Shown here: piece after piece, positions 35,348 through 42,929 of the stretch | Layout: each line of letters begins with the position of its first letter | Numbering within the stretch: position 1 is the stretch's first letter | NCBI GenBank assembly: GCA_903857495.1 | Contig: CAIOFF010000030.1 | Location: forward strand, 1 to 52,218 | Length of the DNA stretch: 52,218 nucleotides | Direction of reading: 5' to 3' | Source of the DNA: an uncultured Holophagaceae bacterium | GTDB taxonomy: Bacteria > Acidobacteriota > Holophagae > Holophagales > Holophagaceae | Notes under the pieces: model-generated | What the model saw: the letters and a program-made list of their open reading frames with translations, nothing else | Database searches by the model: none | What the model was told of the DNA's origin: nothing | Position numbers and translations under genes: made by a program

Positions 35348-35911
35348 ATGCACCCGTTCGACCGAGCGTTCCGCTTCGTCCTGCCGGCCGCGGCCGTGGC
35401 GATCCTCGTCACGATCCTCTCCGTGGGCTGGCTCACGGAGCCGGACCGCTTCGCCAAGGGCTATGCCCCAGAACAGCCCATCCCCTTCAGCCATCAGCTG
35501 CATGCCGGCACCCTGCGCATGCAGTGCCAGTACTGCCACTCGGGCGTCGACAAGTCCCGGCACGCGGGCATTCCGAGCGTGGACCTCTGCATGGGCTGCC
35601 ACAAGGTCACCAAGGCCGACCGCCCCGCCATCCAGAAGCTGGCCCGCATCGCCCAGACCGGGGAGCCCCTGCCCTGGCAGCGGGTCCACACCCTGCCGGA
35701 CCACGTCTTCTTCGACCACCGGCCCCACGTGAACGCGGGCATCGCCTGCCAGAGCTGCCACGGAGAGGTCCAGACCATGAAGGTGATCACCCGCGAGATG
35801 GGCATGCGCATGGGCAACTGCCTGGCCTGCCATCGCGACCCCCACGCGGCGCTGCCGCCGGGCTCCAAGATCACCCGGGGCGCCGAAAACTGCGCCGCTT
35901 GCCACCGCTAG
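35348..35911 (+). CDS. actA: ACIII subunit ActA, pentaheme cytochrome c
   Basis: A 187-residue protein with one N-terminal membrane helix (about 10-28) and five CxxCH heme-attachment sites at 60-64, 81-85, 134-138, 158-162 and 182-186. This number and spacing match ActA of Alternative Complex III, which receives electrons from the Fe-S subunit in the periplasm. ATG 35348 was chosen because AAGGGG lies 7 bases upstream and the conserved helix starts there. First gene of the act-cta operon. Confidence 0.93.
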   Translation: MHPFDRAFRFVLPAAAVAILVTILSVGWLTEPDRFAKGYAPEQPIPFSHQLHAGTLRMQCQYCHSGVDKSRHAGIPSVDLCMGCHKVTKADRPAIQKLARIAQTGEPLPWQRVHTLPDHVFFDHRPHVNAGIACQSCHGEVQTMKVITREMGMRMGNCLACHRDPHAALPPGSKITRGAENCAACHR

Positions 35912-35930
35912 GACCCAGGGGAGACCGACC

Positions 35931-36119
35931 ATGGCCGACGCCGACCGCAAACCCCTCCTCGACCGGGCCGCCGCCCTGCTGGCGGGCCCCTTCCTGCTGG
36001 GTCGCCAGGCCCTGAGCCTGGCCTTCCCGTCCGACCGGGAAACCCCGGAGGCGCCTGCCTTGGCCCTCCAGCGGATTCCCGTCACGCCCCCCGAACACGC
36101 CATCAAGCGCCGTGGATGA
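35931..36119 (+). CDS. 62-residue protein of unknown function inside the ACIII operon
   Basis: Lies between actA and actB, 19 bp after the first and ending just before the actB ATG. GGGGAG sits 8 bases before its ATG. Codons follow the operon's GC3 preference, which supports real coding. It has a moderately hydrophobic stretch (AAALLAGPFLLGRQALSLAF, about residues 13-32) that might associate with the membrane, then a Pro-rich tail ending HAIKRRG. No family recognised. It may be an accessory ACIII subunit or assembly factor. Confidence 0.6.
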   Translation: MADADRKPLLDRAAALLAGPFLLGRQALSLAFPSDRETPEAPALALQRIPVTPPEHAIKRRG

Positions 36120-36123
36120 CCCG

Positions 36124-39105
36124 ATGAAGACCCGACTCCCCGATCATGGCCCCGTGGAAGCACCCCGCTTCTGGCGCACGCTGGAAGAGCGCGTGGAGAC
36201 GCCGGAGGCCCGCCAGGCCGCCCACGATGAGTTCCTGCCGGGCGCAGTCCCGGCCTACGATGACGTCCACGGCCTGCCCCCCCAGAGCGGCGTCTCCCGC
36301 CGCGACTTCCTGGGCCTGGTGAGCGCCGCAGCTGCCCTGGCCGCCACGGTTGGCTGCGACCGCAAGGGCCAGGGCACCGTGGTGCCCTACACCAAGCGCC
36401 CCGTGGAAGTGACCCCGGGCGTGGCCAACTACTACGCCAGCGCCTTCCAGGAGGGCCGCCGGGTCTACCCCGTCCTGGTCAAGACCCGGGAGGGCCGCCC
36501 CATCCACCTGACGGGCAACGACGAGCACCCCGGCGTGCGGGGCAAGACCAGCCCCCGCGCCATGGCCGATGTTCTGCGGCTCTACGATCCCGACCGCCTG
36601 CGCGCCCCCAAAGCCGAGGGCCGGACCATTGGCTGGACCGAGGCCGAGGCCAGGCTCCACGGGAGCCTGCAGGCCGCCAAGGCCACTGGCAAGCCCGTGC
36701 TGCTGCTCTCGGGCGCCGTCGCCTCGCCCACCCGAAAGGCCCTGCTGGCCGACCTCAAGGCCGCCTTGCCGACCCTCGAGCACCTGGCCTACGAGCCCGC
36801 CGCCGGGGACGCCGCCGAAGAGGCCGCCCGCGTGAGCTACGGTCAGAGCGTGGCCATTCAGCCCCGCCTGGCCAAGGCCAAGGTGATCCTGTCCCTGGGT
36901 GCGGACTTCCTCAATGGTGAGGATCCGGAGACCCTGGCTGCCTGGGGCGCGCAGCGCCGCCTGAAGAGCGCCAAGGAGCCCATCAATCGCCTCTGGGTGC
37001 TCGAAGGCCCCCTGACCCTGACCGGCACCAACGCCGACCACCGCTATCCGGTGGCGCCTTCCCGCCTGGCAGCCCTGGCCTTCACGCTGGCCCGGGAGCT
37101 GGCCGCCAAGGGTCTGCCCCTGCCCGCAGGTGCGAACCTCTCTGCCTTGCCCGGCGGGGCTCCGGCCGATGTCCCCACCCAGGCCTGGGCGAACCTGGTG
37201 AAGGACCTCCAGCATGCGGGCCGCAACGCCGTGGTGCTCTGCGGCGCCCAGATGCCCGCCGCCGCCCACCAGGCCGCCCACCTGCTCAACGCCATGCTCG
37301 GCTCCGAGGCCATGGCCCTGAGCCCCGCCGAGCCCCTGGCCACCACCAGGGACCTTGAGGCCGCTGTCCAGGGCATGGCCGCCGGCCGCTACGCCGCCGC
37401 GATCTTCTGGGATGTGAACCCCGCCTTCACCTATGCCCGAGCCACTGCATGGAAGGACGCTGTGGCCAAGGTGCCCCTGCGGGCCTGGATCGGCCTCATG
37501 GAGGACGAGACCGCCGCCCAGTGCCAGCTGGTCCTGCCGGAGAACCACTGGCTGGAGAGCTGGGGCGACTACGCCACCCCCGGCGCCACAGTGCTCCAGC
37601 AGCCCACGGTGGGCACCCTCTACGACACCCGTCAGGGCGAGGACGTGCTCCTGGGCCTCCTGAAGGCGCTGGGCGCCGCCCCGGCCGCGGACTACCACGC
37701 CTACCTCCGCGCCCGCTGGGAGAAGGCCGGGCTGCAGGGCGGCACCTTCGAGCAGGCCCTGCACGACGGCCTGGTGAAGACCGATGCCAAGCCCACCGCC
37801 CCGGCCTTCAGGGGTGCTTCGGTGGCCTCCGCCGAGCGCGCAGCGAAGGGCGCCGAGGGCTTTGAGCTCGTGCTCTTCCCGGGCTTCGCCCCCCATGATG
37901 GCCGCCACGCCAACAACAGCTGGCTGCAGGAGACGCCGGATCCCATCAGCAAGATGACCTGGGACAACCCCGTGGCCGTGTCCGTGCAGGACGCCCAGGC
38001 CCTGGGCATCCAGGAGGGGGACTTCGTCACCCTGACCCTGGAGGGCACCACCCTCCGGCTGCCCGCGGTGATCCAGCCCGGCCAGGCCAAGGGCGTGCTG
38101 GCCCTGGCCCTGGGCTACGGCCGCACCACCGGCGGGGTCGCCAAGGGTGTGGGCGCCAACGCCTACCCGTTCCTGGGTCTGGATCCGACTACCGCGAATG
38201 TCCGTCAGGGCGCGCGCCTGGCCAAGGCCGGCGGCCGGAAGGAGCTCTCCCGCACCCAGAGCCACCACCGCATGGAGGGCCGCGACATCGTGCGCTCCCT
38301 CACCATGGACGAGTTCCTGCATCACCCCCAGGGGCACCACCACCAGCCCGAATTGGTGACGCTCTACGAGGAGCAGAAGTTCCCGGACCATAAGTGGGGC
38401 ATGGTCATCGACCTCGCCGCCTGTGTGGGCTGCTCCGCCTGCGTGGTGGCCTGCCAGTCCGAGAACAACGTGCCGGTCGTGGGTCCCGAGCAGGTGGCCA
38501 AGGGCCGCGAGATGCACTGGATCCGCATCGACCGCTACTACGAGGGCGAGCTGGAGAACCCCAAGGTGGTCCACCAGCCCATGCTCTGCCAGCACTGCGA
38601 CAGCGCGCCCTGCGAGAACGTCTGCCCCGTGAACGCCACCAACCACAGCCCCGACGGGCTGAACCAGATGGCCTACAACCGCTGCGTGGGCACCCGCTAC
38701 TGCGCCAACAACTGCCCCTACAAGGTGCGCCGCTTCAACTTCCTGGAATACACCGCCTACAAGACCGAGCCCGAGACCCTGGCCTACAACCCGGAAGTCA
38801 CGGTGCGACCGCGCGGCGTCATGGAGAAGTGCTCCTTCTGCGTGCAGCGCATCAACGACGTGAAGATCCGCGCCAAGGGCGAGGGCCGCTCGATCCTGGA
38901 CGGCGAGGTCACCACTGCCTGCATGGCGGGCTGCCCCTCAGACGCCATCGTCTTCGGCGACCTCAAGGACCCCGAGAGCCGCATCGCCCAGTTGGTCACC
39001 GCCACCCGGGCCTACCGCGTGCTGGAGGAGGTGGGCGCCAAGCCCGCCATCACCTACCTGGCCGATCTGAAGAACCCCGTCGAGGGAGGTCACCATGCGA
39101 ACTGA
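36124..39105 (+). CDS. actB: ACIII subunit ActB, fused molybdopterin-oxidoreductase-like and Fe-S subunit
   Basis: A 993-residue periplasmic protein. A twin-arginine motif SRRDFLG (58-64) and a lipobox-like cysteine (ATVGC, C78) suggest Tat export and perhaps lipidation. Residues about 85-700 resemble molybdopterin oxidoreductases but, as in ActB generally, without a recognisable cofactor site. From C767 there is a ferredoxin-like domain with four cysteine groups (CVGCSACVVAC, CQHCDSAPCENVC, CVGTRYCANNC, CSFC/CMAGC) for Fe-S clusters. It wires quinol oxidation in ActC to hemes of ActA. GTG 36112 is an alternative start. Confidence 0.93.
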   Translation: MKTRLPDHGPVEAPRFWRTLEERVETPEARQAAHDEFLPGAVPAYDDVHGLPPQSGVSRRDFLGLVSAAAALAATVGCDRKGQGTVVPYTKRPVEVTPGVANYYASAFQEGRRVYPVLVKTREGRPIHLTGNDEHPGVRGKTSPRAMADVLRLYDPDRLRAPKAEGRTIGWTEAEARLHGSLQAAKATGKPVLLLSGAVASPTRKALLADLKAALPTLEHLAYEPAAGDAAEEAARVSYGQSVAIQPRLAKAKVILSLGADFLNGEDPETLAAWGAQRRLKSAKEPINRLWVLEGPLTLTGTNADHRYPVAPSRLAALAFTLARELAAKGLPLPAGANLSALPGGAPADVPTQAWANLVKDLQHAGRNAVVLCGAQMPAAAHQAAHLLNAMLGSEAMALSPAEPLATTRDLEAAVQGMAAGRYAAAIFWDVNPAFTYARATAWKDAVAKVPLRAWIGLMEDETAAQCQLVLPENHWLESWGDYATPGATVLQQPTVGTLYDTRQGEDVLLGLLKALGAAPAADYHAYLRARWEKAGLQGGTFEQALHDGLVKTDAKPTAPAFRGASVASAERAAKGAEGFELVLFPGFAPHDGRHANNSWLQETPDPISKMTWDNPVAVSVQDAQALGIQEGDFVTLTLEGTTLRLPAVIQPGQAKGVLALALGYGRTTGGVAKGVGANAYPFLGLDPTTANVRQGARLAKAGGRKELSRTQSHHRMEGRDIVRSLTMDEFLHHPQGHHHQPELVTLYEEQKFPDHKWGMVIDLAACVGCSACVVACQSENNVPVVGPEQVAKGREMHWIRIDRYYEGELENPKVVHQPMLCQHCDSAPCENVCPVNATNHSPDGLNQMAYNRCVGTRYCANNCPYKVRRFNFLEYTAYKTEPETLAYNPEVTVRPRGVMEKCSFCVQRINDVKIRAKGEGRSILDGEVTTACMAGCPSDAIVFGDLKDPESRIAQLVTATRAYRVLEEVGAKPAITYLADLKNPVEGGHHAN

Positions 39106-40495
39106 CGCCTCCGTCCACGCGGTCCCGATCCCCGAAGGCCTGCTGGAGCCCGCGCTCACCGTGGGCAAGGTCACGCCGGGCAGCCTTGACGACCAAGTGC
39201 TGGCCTTCCCCGAGACCAAGCCTCCGAAGCAGTGGTATCTGGCCCTGGCCGTCACCCTGACAGCGCTGGGCATCGGTCTGGCCTGCATCGGCTACACCTT
39301 CACCACCGGCATCGGCGCCTGGGGCAACAGCAGCCCGGTGTTCTGGGCCTTCGACATCATCAACTTCGTGTTCTGGGTGGGCATCGGCCACGCCGGGACG
39401 CTGATCTCCGCCATCCTCTTCCTCTTCCGGAAGCGCTGGCGCAACGCCATCGCCCGCTTCGCCGAGGCCATGACCATCTTCGCGGTCATGTGCGCCGTGA
39501 TCTTCCCCCTCATCCACGTGGGCCGGCCCTGGCTCGCCTACTGGCTGTTCCCCTACCCGAACGAGCGCGCCCTGTGGACCAACTTCCGCTCGCCGCTGCT
39601 CTGGGACGTCTTCGCGGTGAACACCTACTTCTCCGTGTCCCTGATGTTCTGGTACCTGGGCCTGATCCCCGACATCGCCTCCATGCGGGACCGCACCACC
39701 AGCAAGCTGCGCAAGACCATCTACACCGTCCTGGCCCTGGGCTGGCGCGGCGCCGCCTCCCACTGGCAGCACTACGAGAAGGCCTACCTGCTGCTGGCGG
39801 GCCTGGCCACGGGCCTGGTGCTCTCGGTGCACTCGGTGGTGAGCTTCGACTTCGCCACCTCCGTGGTGCCCGGCTGGCACATGACCATCTTCCCGCCCTA
39901 CTTCGTGGCGGGCGCGATCTTCGCCGGGTTCTCCATGGTGGTAATCGTGCTGGTGGTGGTGCGCGAGACCATGCAGCTCAAGAACCTGATCACCATGCGC
40001 CACCTGGACGTGATGAACAAGGTCATCCTCGCCATGAGCTGCATCATGGGCTACAGCTACATGATGGAGGGCTTCACGGCCTGGTATTCCATGAACGAAT
40101 ACCTGCACCACGGCTTCATGAACATCATCACCGGCACCTACGGCTGGGCCGGCTGGATCACCATCAGCTGCAACATTTTCATCCCCCAGCTGCTCTGGTT
40201 CAAAAAGTGCCGCAGCAGCTACTTCTGGATGATCCTGGTGGCCATCGGCGTGACCATCGGCATGTGGTTCGAGCGCTTCGTGATCATCGTGATCTCGCTG
40301 CACCAGGACTACCTACCCTCCGCCTGGCGCATCTACAAGCCGACCATGGTCGACTTCGGCATCCTGCTCGGCACCTTCGGCCTCTTCTTCACCCTGGTCC
40401 TGATCTTCGCCCGGGTGCTGCCGGTCATCGCCACCACCGAGGTGAAGGCCATCCTCCCGGACGCGCAGCCGAGCCACGGGGGCAGCCATGAATAA
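39095..40495 (+). CDS. actC: ACIII subunit ActC, NrfD-like quinol-binding membrane protein
   Basis: A 466-residue protein with about ten membrane helices of the NrfD/PsrC family, including GIGHAGTLISAILFLFRKRWRN and the loop FPLIHVGRPWLAYW. ActC holds the quinol oxidation site close to the Fe-S subunit. It overlaps actB by 11 bases and has GGGAGG before its ATG. It is followed by a 143-bp gap carrying a dispersed palindrome before the next operon gene. Confidence 0.93.
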   Translation: MRTDASVHAVPIPEGLLEPALTVGKVTPGSLDDQVLAFPETKPPKQWYLALAVTLTALGIGLACIGYTFTTGIGAWGNSSPVFWAFDIINFVFWVGIGHAGTLISAILFLFRKRWRNAIARFAEAMTIFAVMCAVIFPLIHVGRPWLAYWLFPYPNERALWTNFRSPLLWDVFAVNTYFSVSLMFWYLGLIPDIASMRDRTTSKLRKTIYTVLALGWRGAASHWQHYEKAYLLLAGLATGLVLSVHSVVSFDFATSVVPGWHMTIFPPYFVAGAIFAGFSMVVIVLVVVRETMQLKNLITMRHLDVMNKVILAMSCIMGYSYMMEGFTAWYSMNEYLHHGFMNIITGTYGWAGWITISCNIFIPQLLWFKKCRSSYFWMILVAIGVTIGMWFERFVIIVISLHQDYLPSAWRIYKPTMVDFGILLGTFGLFFTLVLIFARVLPVIATTEVKAILPDAQPSHGGSHE

Positions 40496-40512
40496 AAAAT
40501 TGAAAGGAAACC

Positions 40513-40614
40513 ACTCTCGCAGAGATCGCGGAGACAGCGGAGGGGCGCAGAGGAAATCGTTCGAGGGGTTGTCCTCCTCCTCTCTCCGCCCCCTCTGCGA
40601 CCCTCTGCGAGAGT
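40513..40614. repeat. Dispersed palindromic element, copy B, inside the ACIII operon
   Basis: Termini ACTCTCGCAGAG (40513-40524) and CTCTGCGAGAGT (40603-40614) are perfect 12-bp inverted repeats enclosing complementary purine and pyrimidine tracts. TTTTT follows the right arm, so the RNA could form a long hairpin with a short U-tract between actC and actDE. Shares termini and layout with 10651-10747. Confidence 0.8.
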
Positions 40615-40638
40615 TTTTCCTGTCCCCGGGGGCCTGCC

Positions 40639-41784
40639 ATGTCCGATAAAAAGGCCTACGCCGTCCTCGGCCTCTTCGAGACGCCCGACGCGCTGATGCA
40701 CGCTATCCCCAAGCTGCGGGCGGCGAAGCTCGGCACGGTCGAGGCCTACACGCCCTACCCCATCCACGGCATCGACGAGGCCCTGGGGCTGCGCCGCTCT
40801 CCCCTGGGCGGCATGGTGCTGGTCATGGGCGTGCTGGGCGCGCTCACCGCCTTCGGGTTCCAGTACTGGATCAGCGCCATCGACTACCCGATCATCACCG
40901 GCGGCAAGTCGGCGGCCTCCTGGGAAGCGTTCATCCCCATCATGTTCGAAGTGACGGTGCTCTTCGCCACCTTCACCGCGGGCCTGGGCATGCTGCTGCT
41001 GCTCAACCGGCTGCCCTTCTTCGGCCATCCCGTCCTGTCCGCCAAGGCCATGAAGGGGATCACCCGCGACCGCTACGCCCTGGCCCTGGAGGCCGAGAGC
41101 GAGGCCTTCGACAGCGCCGCCGCGGCCCAGGCCCTCGAGGCCGCGGGCGCGGTGGACATCGAGGTGCTGCCCGCCCCGGACCGCAGCCCCTTCCTCACCA
41201 GCGACTACATCCTGCGCACCCTGGGCGGCATCTTCGTGGCCTGCCTGGTGGCGGGCTTGGGGATCTTCTCCCTCATCAAGTGGTTCCCGCTGCTGGCGCC
41301 CATGAAGTACATGCAGGACCAGCCGCGCCTCAACGCCCAGAAGGCCTCGACCTTCTTCAAGGACGGCCATGGCATGCAACCGCCGGTGCCAGGCACCGTG
41401 GCCCGGGGCTACCTGCCCACGGCCACCGGCACCCAGGACGCATCGGCCAACCTGGTGAACCCCCTGCCCCGCACCAAGGACGTCTTCGCCCAGGGCCGGA
41501 AGGTCTATACCAACCGGTGCGAGGTCTGCCATGGCGCCCTGGCGAACGGCGCGGGCAGCCTCACCGCCGCCTACGGCGCCAAGCCCGCGAACCTGCAGGC
41601 CCAGCAGTTCCGCGACTACCCGGACGGCAAGATCTACTGGGCTGTCGTGAACGGCAAGAACGCCATGCCCGCCCACGCGGCCTACCTCACCGAGCCGCAG
41701 CGGTGGGCGGTGGTCCACTACGTGCGCGCCCTCCAGCGCGCCCAGAACGCCACGGACGAGGACCTGAAGGTGGTCGCACCATGA
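40639..41784 (+). CDS. actDE: Fused ACIII subunits ActD and ActE (DUF3341 plus monoheme cytochrome c)
   Basis: A 381-residue fusion. Residues 1-180 are ActD (DUF3341): AVLGLFETPDALMHAIPKLR, then two membrane helices (about 57-80 and 98-122). A helix at about 193-214 leads into ActE, recognised by GMQPPVPGTVARGYLP (245-260), the heme site CEVCH (294-298) and the likely axial methionine M343 in KNAMPAH. In most act operons these are two genes. It lies directly after the palindrome and overlaps actF by 4 bases (ATGA). Confidence 0.93.
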   Translation: MSDKKAYAVLGLFETPDALMHAIPKLRAAKLGTVEAYTPYPIHGIDEALGLRRSPLGGMVLVMGVLGALTAFGFQYWISAIDYPIITGGKSAASWEAFIPIMFEVTVLFATFTAGLGMLLLLNRLPFFGHPVLSAKAMKGITRDRYALALEAESEAFDSAAAAQALEAAGAVDIEVLPAPDRSPFLTSDYILRTLGGIFVACLVAGLGIFSLIKWFPLLAPMKYMQDQPRLNAQKASTFFKDGHGMQPPVPGTVARGYLPTATGTQDASANLVNPLPRTKDVFAQGRKVYTNRCEVCHGALANGAGSLTAAYGAKPANLQAQQFRDYPDGKIYWAVVNGKNAMPAHAAYLTEPQRWAVVHYVRALQRAQNATDEDLKVVAP

Positions 41785-42929
41785 GCCAGCAGAAACCGAC
41801 TCCCCCCATTCTCCTTGGCGCGGTCGCCCTGGGCGCCGCCGGCGTCCTGGGCACCTACTTCGCCGCGGGTCCCGAGCGCTTCTGGGCCAACTGGGTGCTC
41901 TGGTTCGTCCTGATGTTCACCCTGGGCCTGGGCTCGCTCTTCATCGTGGCCCTGGAGCACCTGGTCAGCGCCAAGTGGAGTGTGCCCATCCGCCGGATCC
42001 CCGAGCGGCTGGCCACCCTGCTGCTGCCCGCCATTCCTGTGGGCCTCATCGCCCTGGGCGCGGTGCCCGTGCTCTACCCGGGCTCCCGGCCCGAGGCGGC
42101 CCACCACCCGATCCTGGCGGGCAAGGCCTTCTGGCTGAGCCTGCCCTTCTTCTCCGTCCGCACCGTGGCGGCCTTCGTCCTCTGCGTCATCGCCCTCGCC
42201 GTGCTGGTGGGCGGGTCGCTCAAGCAGGACGTGAGCAGGGACCCCGCCTTCAACTTCCGCGCCCGCAAGTTCGCGCCGGCCTTCATGGCCATCTTCGCGC
42301 TGGTGATCACCCTGGTGGCCTTCGACTGGATCTCGGGCCTCACGCCCGAGTGGTACAGCGACATCTTCGGGGTCTACATCTTCGCCGGGGCCTTCCTCAG
42401 CGGCCTCTCGGCCACGGCGCTCTCCCTGCTGTATCTCCAGGGCGAGGGCCGGCTGGAGGGGGTGCGCCAGGACCATCTCTACAACCTCGGCGCCTTCCTC
42501 TTCGCCTTCACGGTGTTCTGGTCCTACATCGGCTTCGCCCAGTACATGCTGATGTGGTATGCCAACATGCCCGACGAGGTCATCTACTACAAGGTGCGCC
42601 TCACTGGCGCCTGGCGGGCCATCACCTTCGCGCTGGCGGGCCTCCACTTCATCCTGCCCTTCTTCGCCCTGGTCACCCGGGACGCCAAGCGGGATCCCAA
42701 GCGGCTCCGCCGCGTGGCCCTGCTGATGCTCGGCGCCCACGTCCTCGACATCTACTGGCTCATCTTCCCGGCGCTTGGCGGGAGCCCGCGCTTCAGCTGG
42801 CCCGAGCTGAGCTTCGCCCTCTTCTTCCTGGGCGGGATCCTCCTCTGGGTCCGGGGCGCCATGCAGAAGGGTGAGGACATGCCGGTGGGCGATCCCTTCC
42901 TCCGCGAGGGTCTGGAGTTCCGCCTATGA
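41781..42929 (+). CDS. actF: ACIII subunit ActF, second NrfD-like membrane subunit
   Basis: A 382-residue protein with about ten membrane helices, related to ActC but diverged. Typical features are the NWVLWFVLMFTLGLGSLFIVALEHL helix and the DIYWLIFPALGGSP loop near the end. ActF pairs with ActC in the ACIII membrane core and may form part of a proton path. Overlaps actDE and the following cytochrome gene by 4 bases each, so all three are translationally coupled. Confidence 0.93.
   Translation: MSQQKPTPPILLGAVALGAAGVLGTYFAAGPERFWANWVLWFVLMFTLGLGSLFIVALEHLVSAKWSVPIRRIPERLATLLLPAIPVGLIALGAVPVLYPGSRPEAAHHPILAGKAFWLSLPFFSVRTVAAFVLCVIALAVLVGGSLKQDVSRDPAFNFRARKFAPAFMAIFALVITLVAFDWISGLTPEWYSDIFGVYIFAGAFLSGLSATALSLLYLQGEGRLEGVRQDHLYNLGAFLFAFTVFWSYIGFAQYMLMWYANMPDEVIYYKVRLTGAWRAITFALAGLHFILPFFALVTRDAKRDPKRLRRVALLMLGAHVLDIYWLIFPALGGSPRFSWPELSFALFFLGGILLWVRGAMQKGEDMPVGDPFLREGLEFRL

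Follow-up and report, generated by a model that had tools for sequence, protein, structure and literature searches.

A small conserved gene between actA and actB marks one branch of bacterial alternative complex III

Introduction

Alternative complex III (ACIII) stands in for cytochrome bc1 in many bacteria. To our knowledge, the list of its subunits rests on four organisms, Rhodothermus, Flavobacterium, Roseiflexus and Chloroflexus. We analysed a stretch of 52,218 nucleotides from a Geothrix-type bacterium of the Holophagaceae (contig CAIOFF010000030.1; hereafter the window), whose ACIII operon carries an open reading frame (ORF) of 62 codons between actA and actB. Is this ORF a gene, and if so, does its product belong to ACIII? 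A sequence-only reading of the window had pointed to its ribosome-binding site and tight spacing, had recognised no known ACIII subunit in it, and had proposed that it encodes a lineage-specific one.

Results

A 62-codon ORF in the act operon of the window

In the window, actA is followed by the small ORF, actB, actC, a fused actD-cytochrome gene and an unassigned gene in the place of actF, which together with additional genes for cytochromes, SCO and caa3 oxidase make up the ACIII operon. The features of interest are the following:

35348 to 35911, plus strand: actA, a pentahaem cytochrome c of 187 aa with five CxxCH motifs (Pfam Cytochrome_C7, 7.1e-16; motifs counted from the sequence)
35917 to 35923, plus strand: Shine-Dalgarno-like AGGGGAG, 7 nt 5' of the ATG of the small ORF (from the sequence)
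35931 to 36119, plus strand: the small gene, 62 codons, for an ACIII-linked, Tat-like microprotein (conserved place in the genus, the family and several phyla; purifying selection)
35946 to 36026, plus strand: N-terminal motif DRKPLLD and hydrophobic helix, residues 6-32 (alignments; predicted helices; weak Tat-family matches of relatives)
36027 to 36074, plus strand: variable linker rich in Pro, about residues 33-48 (pN higher here than in the other two parts; pLDDT lowest)
36075 to 36116, plus strand: conserved C-terminal peptide, residues 49-62, IPVTPPEHAIKRRG, with the core PPEHAIKRRG at 53-62 (conserved in the genus; Ignavibacteria counterpart (H/N)PxAVKR)
36112 to 36128, plus strand: putative actB coupling site, with a GTG (36112) over the stop and an ATG (36124) (from the sequence; lower C-terminal synonymous diversity)
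36124 to 39105, plus strand: actB, with molybdopterin-like and Fe-S domains and its own RR Tat signal (Pfam; matches the ACIII ActB chains of 6LOD, 6F0K, 8K9E and 6BTM)
39095 to 40495, plus strand: actC, NrfD-like membrane subunit (Pfam NrfD, 6.7e-20)
40639 to 41784, plus strand: actD fused to a monohaem cytochrome c, ActDE (Pfam ActD, 3.5e-56; Cytochrome_CBB3, 1.4e-11)

The small ORF opens with an ATG at 35931, 19 nt past the actA stop codon (35909-35911), and closes with a TGA at 36117-36119, 4 nt before the actB ATG; a GTG in frame with actB (36112) shares 8 nt with its end. The ribosome-binding site and the tight spacing claimed earlier are both borne out by these positions, and a Shine-Dalgarno-like site also precedes most orthologues of the ORF.

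Further downstream, a palindromic interspersed repeat lies inside the operon, between actC and the actD-cytochrome fusion (40502-40624), and has about 20 or more other copies in its own genome, on both strands and at 68-91% identity. The gene at 41781-42926 occupies the place of actF, where a second NrfD-like subunit is expected, and has zero Pfam matches at E 1. The same ActDE fusion has been reported in Melioribacter roseus (PMC5492636) and, being common to both organisms, may be another mark of the ACIII branch of the window.

The ORF is kept under purifying selection in Geothrix

A protein search of 60 related genomes recovered the small ORF from almost every member of the genus and, at that sensitivity, from none outside it. 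The 33 readable orthologues (58-65 aa) share an identical place in the genus and keep start, stop and length, which lifts the ORF above chance. The median pairwise dN/dS in the genus is 0.53, with values below 1 in 99.8% of the 519 usable pairs. The observation named beforehand as speaking against a gene was a reading frame broken in close relatives; across Geothrix the frame is intact and under purifying selection, so this test failed to refute the gene. Judged by this conservation, a real gene lies at 35931-36119. On a separate point, one genome of the same genus (G004, 95% complete) gave zero ActB matches, and some members of Geothrix may therefore lack the act operon.

Relatives occupy the same place in several phyla

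The search for a short ORF between actA and actB that had been suggested for the act operons of Acidobacteriota was run, and it found one in several families. Relatives in this gap are about 50-80 codons long and follow the same two-part plan. They are present in other genera of Holophagaceae (G083, G084, G095, G075, G092 and G088) and in Acidobacteriota outside that family (G146, G184, G122, G054 and G259). The gap holds no small ORF in G073, in G074 and in every second-type ACIII operon examined, nor in the f28 loci (Acidobacteriota outside the family) and the g17 loci. Two further genomes, G109 and G192 (loci L097 and L098), contain an ORF shrunk to 16 codons, MDERACEQDRSVKRGG and MDERACEQERSVKRGG, just past the actA stop; these read as a natural case in which the protein has been lost and the ribosome site of actB alone has been kept.

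Beyond the Acidobacteriota, the small ORF is found in Elusimicrobia, a Myxococcales MAG, a Sericytochromatia MAG, Ignavibacteria including Melioribacter, and a MAG labelled Methylomirabilota (L127); the ActB of this last MAG falls within Holophagaceae, and its label may therefore result from a binning error. Thus the lineage-specific part of the earlier proposal does not hold: with relatives in Acidobacteriota, Ignavibacteria, Elusimicrobiota, Sericytochromatia and one Myxococcales MAG, this is a broad family missed by annotation.

In a sample of 149 Ignavibacteria genomes, all 63 readable act loci with ActB of the window's type contain the small ORF. A family HMM returned 62 strong matches (E 4.5e-5 or better) from these genomes. 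Of these, 61 share contig and strand with such an ActB and either overlap it, by up to 13 nt, or precede it by up to 192 nt; the remaining match sits in the gap between actA and actB, where the contig breaks. Only one ActB of this type (in G500) lacks an HMM match, and there the small ORF is present by eye. Strong full-profile matches are confined to act loci, and the weaker ones, which mostly cover the N-terminal part of the profile and fall in other, usually longer, reading frames, look like the Tat signals of other proteins. That AT-rich Ignavibacteria have an ORF of 55-80 codons with the same terminal motif at the same place would not be expected by chance. Similarly, the ORF is present in 5/5 Sericytochromatia act loci of this type. 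In Myxococcota beyond the positive locus (L138) the type is rare, at 1/282 with a strict threshold, and two related Myxococcales act loci (L134 and L152) have no small ORF. Since these two loci, the G109/G192 relic and the f28 and g17 loci do without the protein, it is not essential to the chemistry. The Acidobacteriota and Ignavibacteria profiles align weakly (hhalign E 0.0034, probability 9.5%), and the homology we propose for the two forms comes from fixed position, shared plan and the ActB tree, not from a strong profile match.

The small ORF follows the phylogeny of ActB

We built a maximum-likelihood tree of 128 ActB rows with a quick method and SH-aLRT support; it carries long-branch and composition warnings. 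On this tree the label 'small ORF present' changes 3 times, against a mean of 42 when shuffled, with two rows missed by the automatic caller set to present by hand: L066, inferred from close relatives, and L096, from the gap reading in L100. The ORF marks one ActB clade (74 rows), within which two Myxococcales MAGs and G109/L093 have lost it. Its distribution thus tracks ActB phylogeny (one clade, two losses on the tree), and the true loss count is higher, as the f28 and g17 loci are not among the tree rows.

A second type of ActB, about 40-46% identical, occurs in several Holophagaceae and in Elusimicrobiota (L077-L084 and L237-L242), with no small ORF in the gap. The ActB proteins of the four organisms on which the subunit list rests fall outside the small-ORF branch. 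The solved chains 8K9E, 6LOD and 6F0K score 1089, 1057 and 881 bits against an ActB of the other type (L243), compared with 611, 648 and 618 bits against that of the window and 588, 629 and 627 bits against an Ignavibacteria ActB. The Bacteroidota rows of the tree, L145 excepted, are without the ORF, and 6BTM, from Flavobacterium, is of this Bacteroidetes type. Because the solved ActB chains fall outside the branch with the gene, the published structures probably could not show its product. We also noted four ActB matches with one in-frame TGA (G024:C8:217514-220435, G088:C1:958355-961165, G431:C2:368112-371012 and G531:C10:34889-37966), which could be alignment ends or real interruptions.

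A Tat-like N-terminus and a conserved basic tail

Near its N-terminus the protein has an R-[R/K]-x-[F/I/L]-[F/L] motif of Tat type, which leads into a short hydrophobic helix; a variable linker connects this helix to a C-terminal motif of the form (H/N)P-x-A-V-K-R or PPxH(A/S)(V/I)KRRG. The N-terminal motif reads DRKPLLD in the window copy and NRREILG (in basal Geothrix relatives), ARRDILG or NRRKFF elsewhere. A twin arginine is found in deep-branching Holophagaceae and many others, and RK in the window copy and about half of the family. Overall, the second position is K in 45 and R in 30 of the small proteins, while ActB from the same operons has RR in 86/91. As R-K is the commoner form here and ActB keeps RR, Tat export of the small protein is only putative. 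Moreover, the stretch after the motif is weakly hydrophobic in the window copy (Kyte-Doolittle 1.33 over 17 residues), which, together with the basic tail, would allow for a cytoplasmic, membrane-peripheral protein.

The linker is Pro-rich in Acidobacteriota and basic in Ignavibacteria. At the C-terminus, Holophagaceae have PPxH(A/S)(V/I)KRRG, with P54, R60, R61 and G62 invariant in the genus set, and Ignavibacteria and Sericytochromatia have (H/N)P-x-A-V-K-R. No cofactor ligands are left in the sequence. AlphaFold2, given the window protein alone, predicts two helices (residues 2-23 and 25-31) and, beyond them, a tail in extended form (mean pLDDT 76, pTM 0.35).

The codons of the tail overlap the actB start

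In most Acidobacteriota outside the genus, TCGGTGAAGCGCCGTGG places a Shine-Dalgarno sequence and a GTG start within the SVKRRG codons, and the end of the ORF reads like TCGGTGAAGCGCCGTGGATGA. Because GGTGA can act as Shine-Dalgarno sequence and GTG as the start of actB, these codons can double as the actB initiation site. Indeed, mean pS is lowest at the C-terminus (0.24, against 0.42-0.54 elsewhere in the ORF). Most genus members have lost the GTG and GGTGA and retain HAIKRRG. In Ignavibacteria, AVKR is nearly invariant with freely synonymous codons (four for Ala, four for Val and five for Arg), most of them upstream of the Shine-Dalgarno-like AAGGT of actB. That HAIKRRG is kept without GTG or GGTGA, and that the AVKR codons are free to vary in Ignavibacteria, argues for selection on the peptide itself. 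From these comparisons, the C-terminal end carries both a protein and a nucleotide signal.

Comparison with known families and subunits

The statement that the protein matches no known ACIII subunit stood up: neither the window protein nor its relatives matched any Pfam or NCBIfam model at threshold, the ActA-ActF models included. Among PDB sequences only chance matches were obtained (ribosomal L13a to the N-terminal helix, E 0.03, and Tat signals of other enzymes). A NuoI-like or Rieske fragment was also considered and found no support. A literature search, of limited coverage, found no paper describing the small gene.

A close likeness is to TIGR02811, 'formate dehydrogenase region TAT target' (FdhX-type small proteins), whose members are likewise small (a 66-position model), have a Tat-like N-terminus and are encoded beside a periplasmic enzyme of the CISM family, as the small gene stands beside actB; 5/21 Ignavibacteria members match this model weakly. 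However, the best match (E 0.0012, 19.1 bits) is far below the cut-off of 48.45 bits and aligns the signal part alone (profile positions 1-33), and the small protein has another C-terminal motif and belongs to another operon. Tat signal peptides (TIGR01409, PF10518) share the R-R/K-x-F/I-F/L motif and the short hydrophobic stretch after it, and individual Ignavibacteria members match their profiles weakly; the matches to all three models are below the cut-off wherever one was shown. Unlike Tat signals, the small protein often has K as its second arginine, and what follows is a linker and a conserved C-terminal peptide rather than an enzyme.

Extra ACIII subunits have precedent in Rhodothermus marinus, where mass spectrometry confirmed ActG, which has one predicted transmembrane helix, although the map does not show it; ActH came to light solely through structure and mass spectrometry, and one periplasmic density was left unassigned (PMC5928083). 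ActG and ActH are cofactor-free, non-universal extra subunits, as the small protein would be. The small protein, which like the known subunits is encoded in the act operon, differs in its place between actA and actB, its Tat-like N-terminus and its ActB branch. Because the R. marinus ActB is of the other type, we do not claim the unassigned density for it.

Discussion

The coding status of the small ORF and its linkage to ACIII are well supported, and the question is what the protein does. As best explanation, which we put at about even odds (roughly 0.5), we propose a small accessory protein of one ACIII branch, co-translated with ActB, that would be a membrane-anchored subunit with its tail docked on ActB/ActA. 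Translational coupling, across the 4-nt gap or the 8-nt overlap, would make it in step with ActB. The N-terminal segment would insert in the membrane, or lie on it, as an uncleaved, Tat-derived signal anchor, and the linker would reach across to the periplasmic side, where the (H/N)PxAVKR or PPxHxxKRRG tail could dock on the electron-transfer module of ActB/ActA. So placed, a small structural subunit may stabilise ACIII itself or the contact that ACIII makes with the oxidase of the neighbouring genes. As the protein would be made in step with ActB and joins a Tat-like helix through a flexible linker to a short conserved tail, we infer that a membrane-anchored clip on the periplasmic ACIII module, or a factor that accompanies ActB during assembly, would be the simplest workings. 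The earlier reading thus stands in part: a real gene in the act operon that matches no known subunit and behaves as an ACIII component would, in one position, with one ActB clade and tightly coupled to actB, but not a lineage-specific one.

The main competitor, somewhat unlikely in our estimate, is an assembly or export factor that acts while ActB folds, receives its Fe-S clusters and passes to the Tat system, and is released later. Its N-terminus resembles a signal peptide, the gene stands directly before actB and would be translated in step with it, and some lineages dispense with the protein; a relaxed twin arginine would also be in keeping with a protein that contacts the Tat machinery or ActB in another role than that of normal cargo. 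However, a protein of 62 aa predicted to be mostly an extended tail has no fold of the known redox-enzyme chaperones, and a subunit would be just as likely to pair strictly one-to-one with a single ActB clade. Less probable still, and in our view improbable, is a mainly translational leader, in which ribosomes ending the ORF start actB and the peptide is a by-product. The SVKRRG codons that hold the actB GGTGA and GTG in most Acidobacteriota outside the genus, the reduced synonymous diversity at the C-terminus, and the 16-codon remnant of G109/G192, which keeps the actB site, are what a leader would leave. Against it, the N-terminal half is conserved across phyla, the tail persists in most genus members without GTG and GGTGA, the Ignavibacteria AVKR residues stay although their codons vary and lie upstream of the actB Shine-Dalgarno sequence, and other ActB branches manage with a gap of 10-50 nt and no leader.

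The two remaining explanations fare much worse. A Tat-like N-terminus with no cofactor ligands could be the vestige of a larger, Tat-exported redox subunit that is now functionless, but this is very improbable and already contradicted by the purifying selection in the genus and by the small ORF with its C-terminal motif in 63/63 Ignavibacteria loci. Long spurious ORFs abound in the window, on either strand, and a chance ORF in a GC-rich intergenic stretch might have been suspected; yet frame, length, start, stop and sequence are conserved in the genus and across phyla, AT-rich genomes included, and we regard this explanation as refuted.

How could such a gene be overlooked? In M. roseus, actA and actB have the consecutive locus numbers Mros0045 and Mros0044 (PMC3534657), and in an M. 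roseus MAG (locus L143) the small ORF MIIKKYNRKNFFNMIGKGSLYAFLASALPFKLFSSNRKSIKNINVQIHSSAVRRNNKV lies between the two genes. Assuming that the type strain has the gene order of the MAG, this suggests that the gene was not annotated and so was not searchable in proteomics, although the proteome of this organism has been published (PMC5492636). It is tempting to go further and to see in the product a phylum-crossing, Tat-anchored micro-subunit of one ACIII branch, one-to-one with ActB, its AVKR-type tail plugged into ActB/ActA, previously unrecognised and missed both by annotation and by structures from other branches; this bolder version we hold tentatively, at somewhat short of an even chance. 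In more general terms, the small gene probably encodes a component of one ACIII branch, or a helper in its assembly, that had gone unrecognised. If it is a subunit, the parts list of ACIII would be incomplete for Ignavibacteria, Acidobacteriota and others. The small protein also makes a structural question testable: which small proteins tether the periplasmic module to the membrane, and by what route the complex is assembled with Tat-exported ActB.
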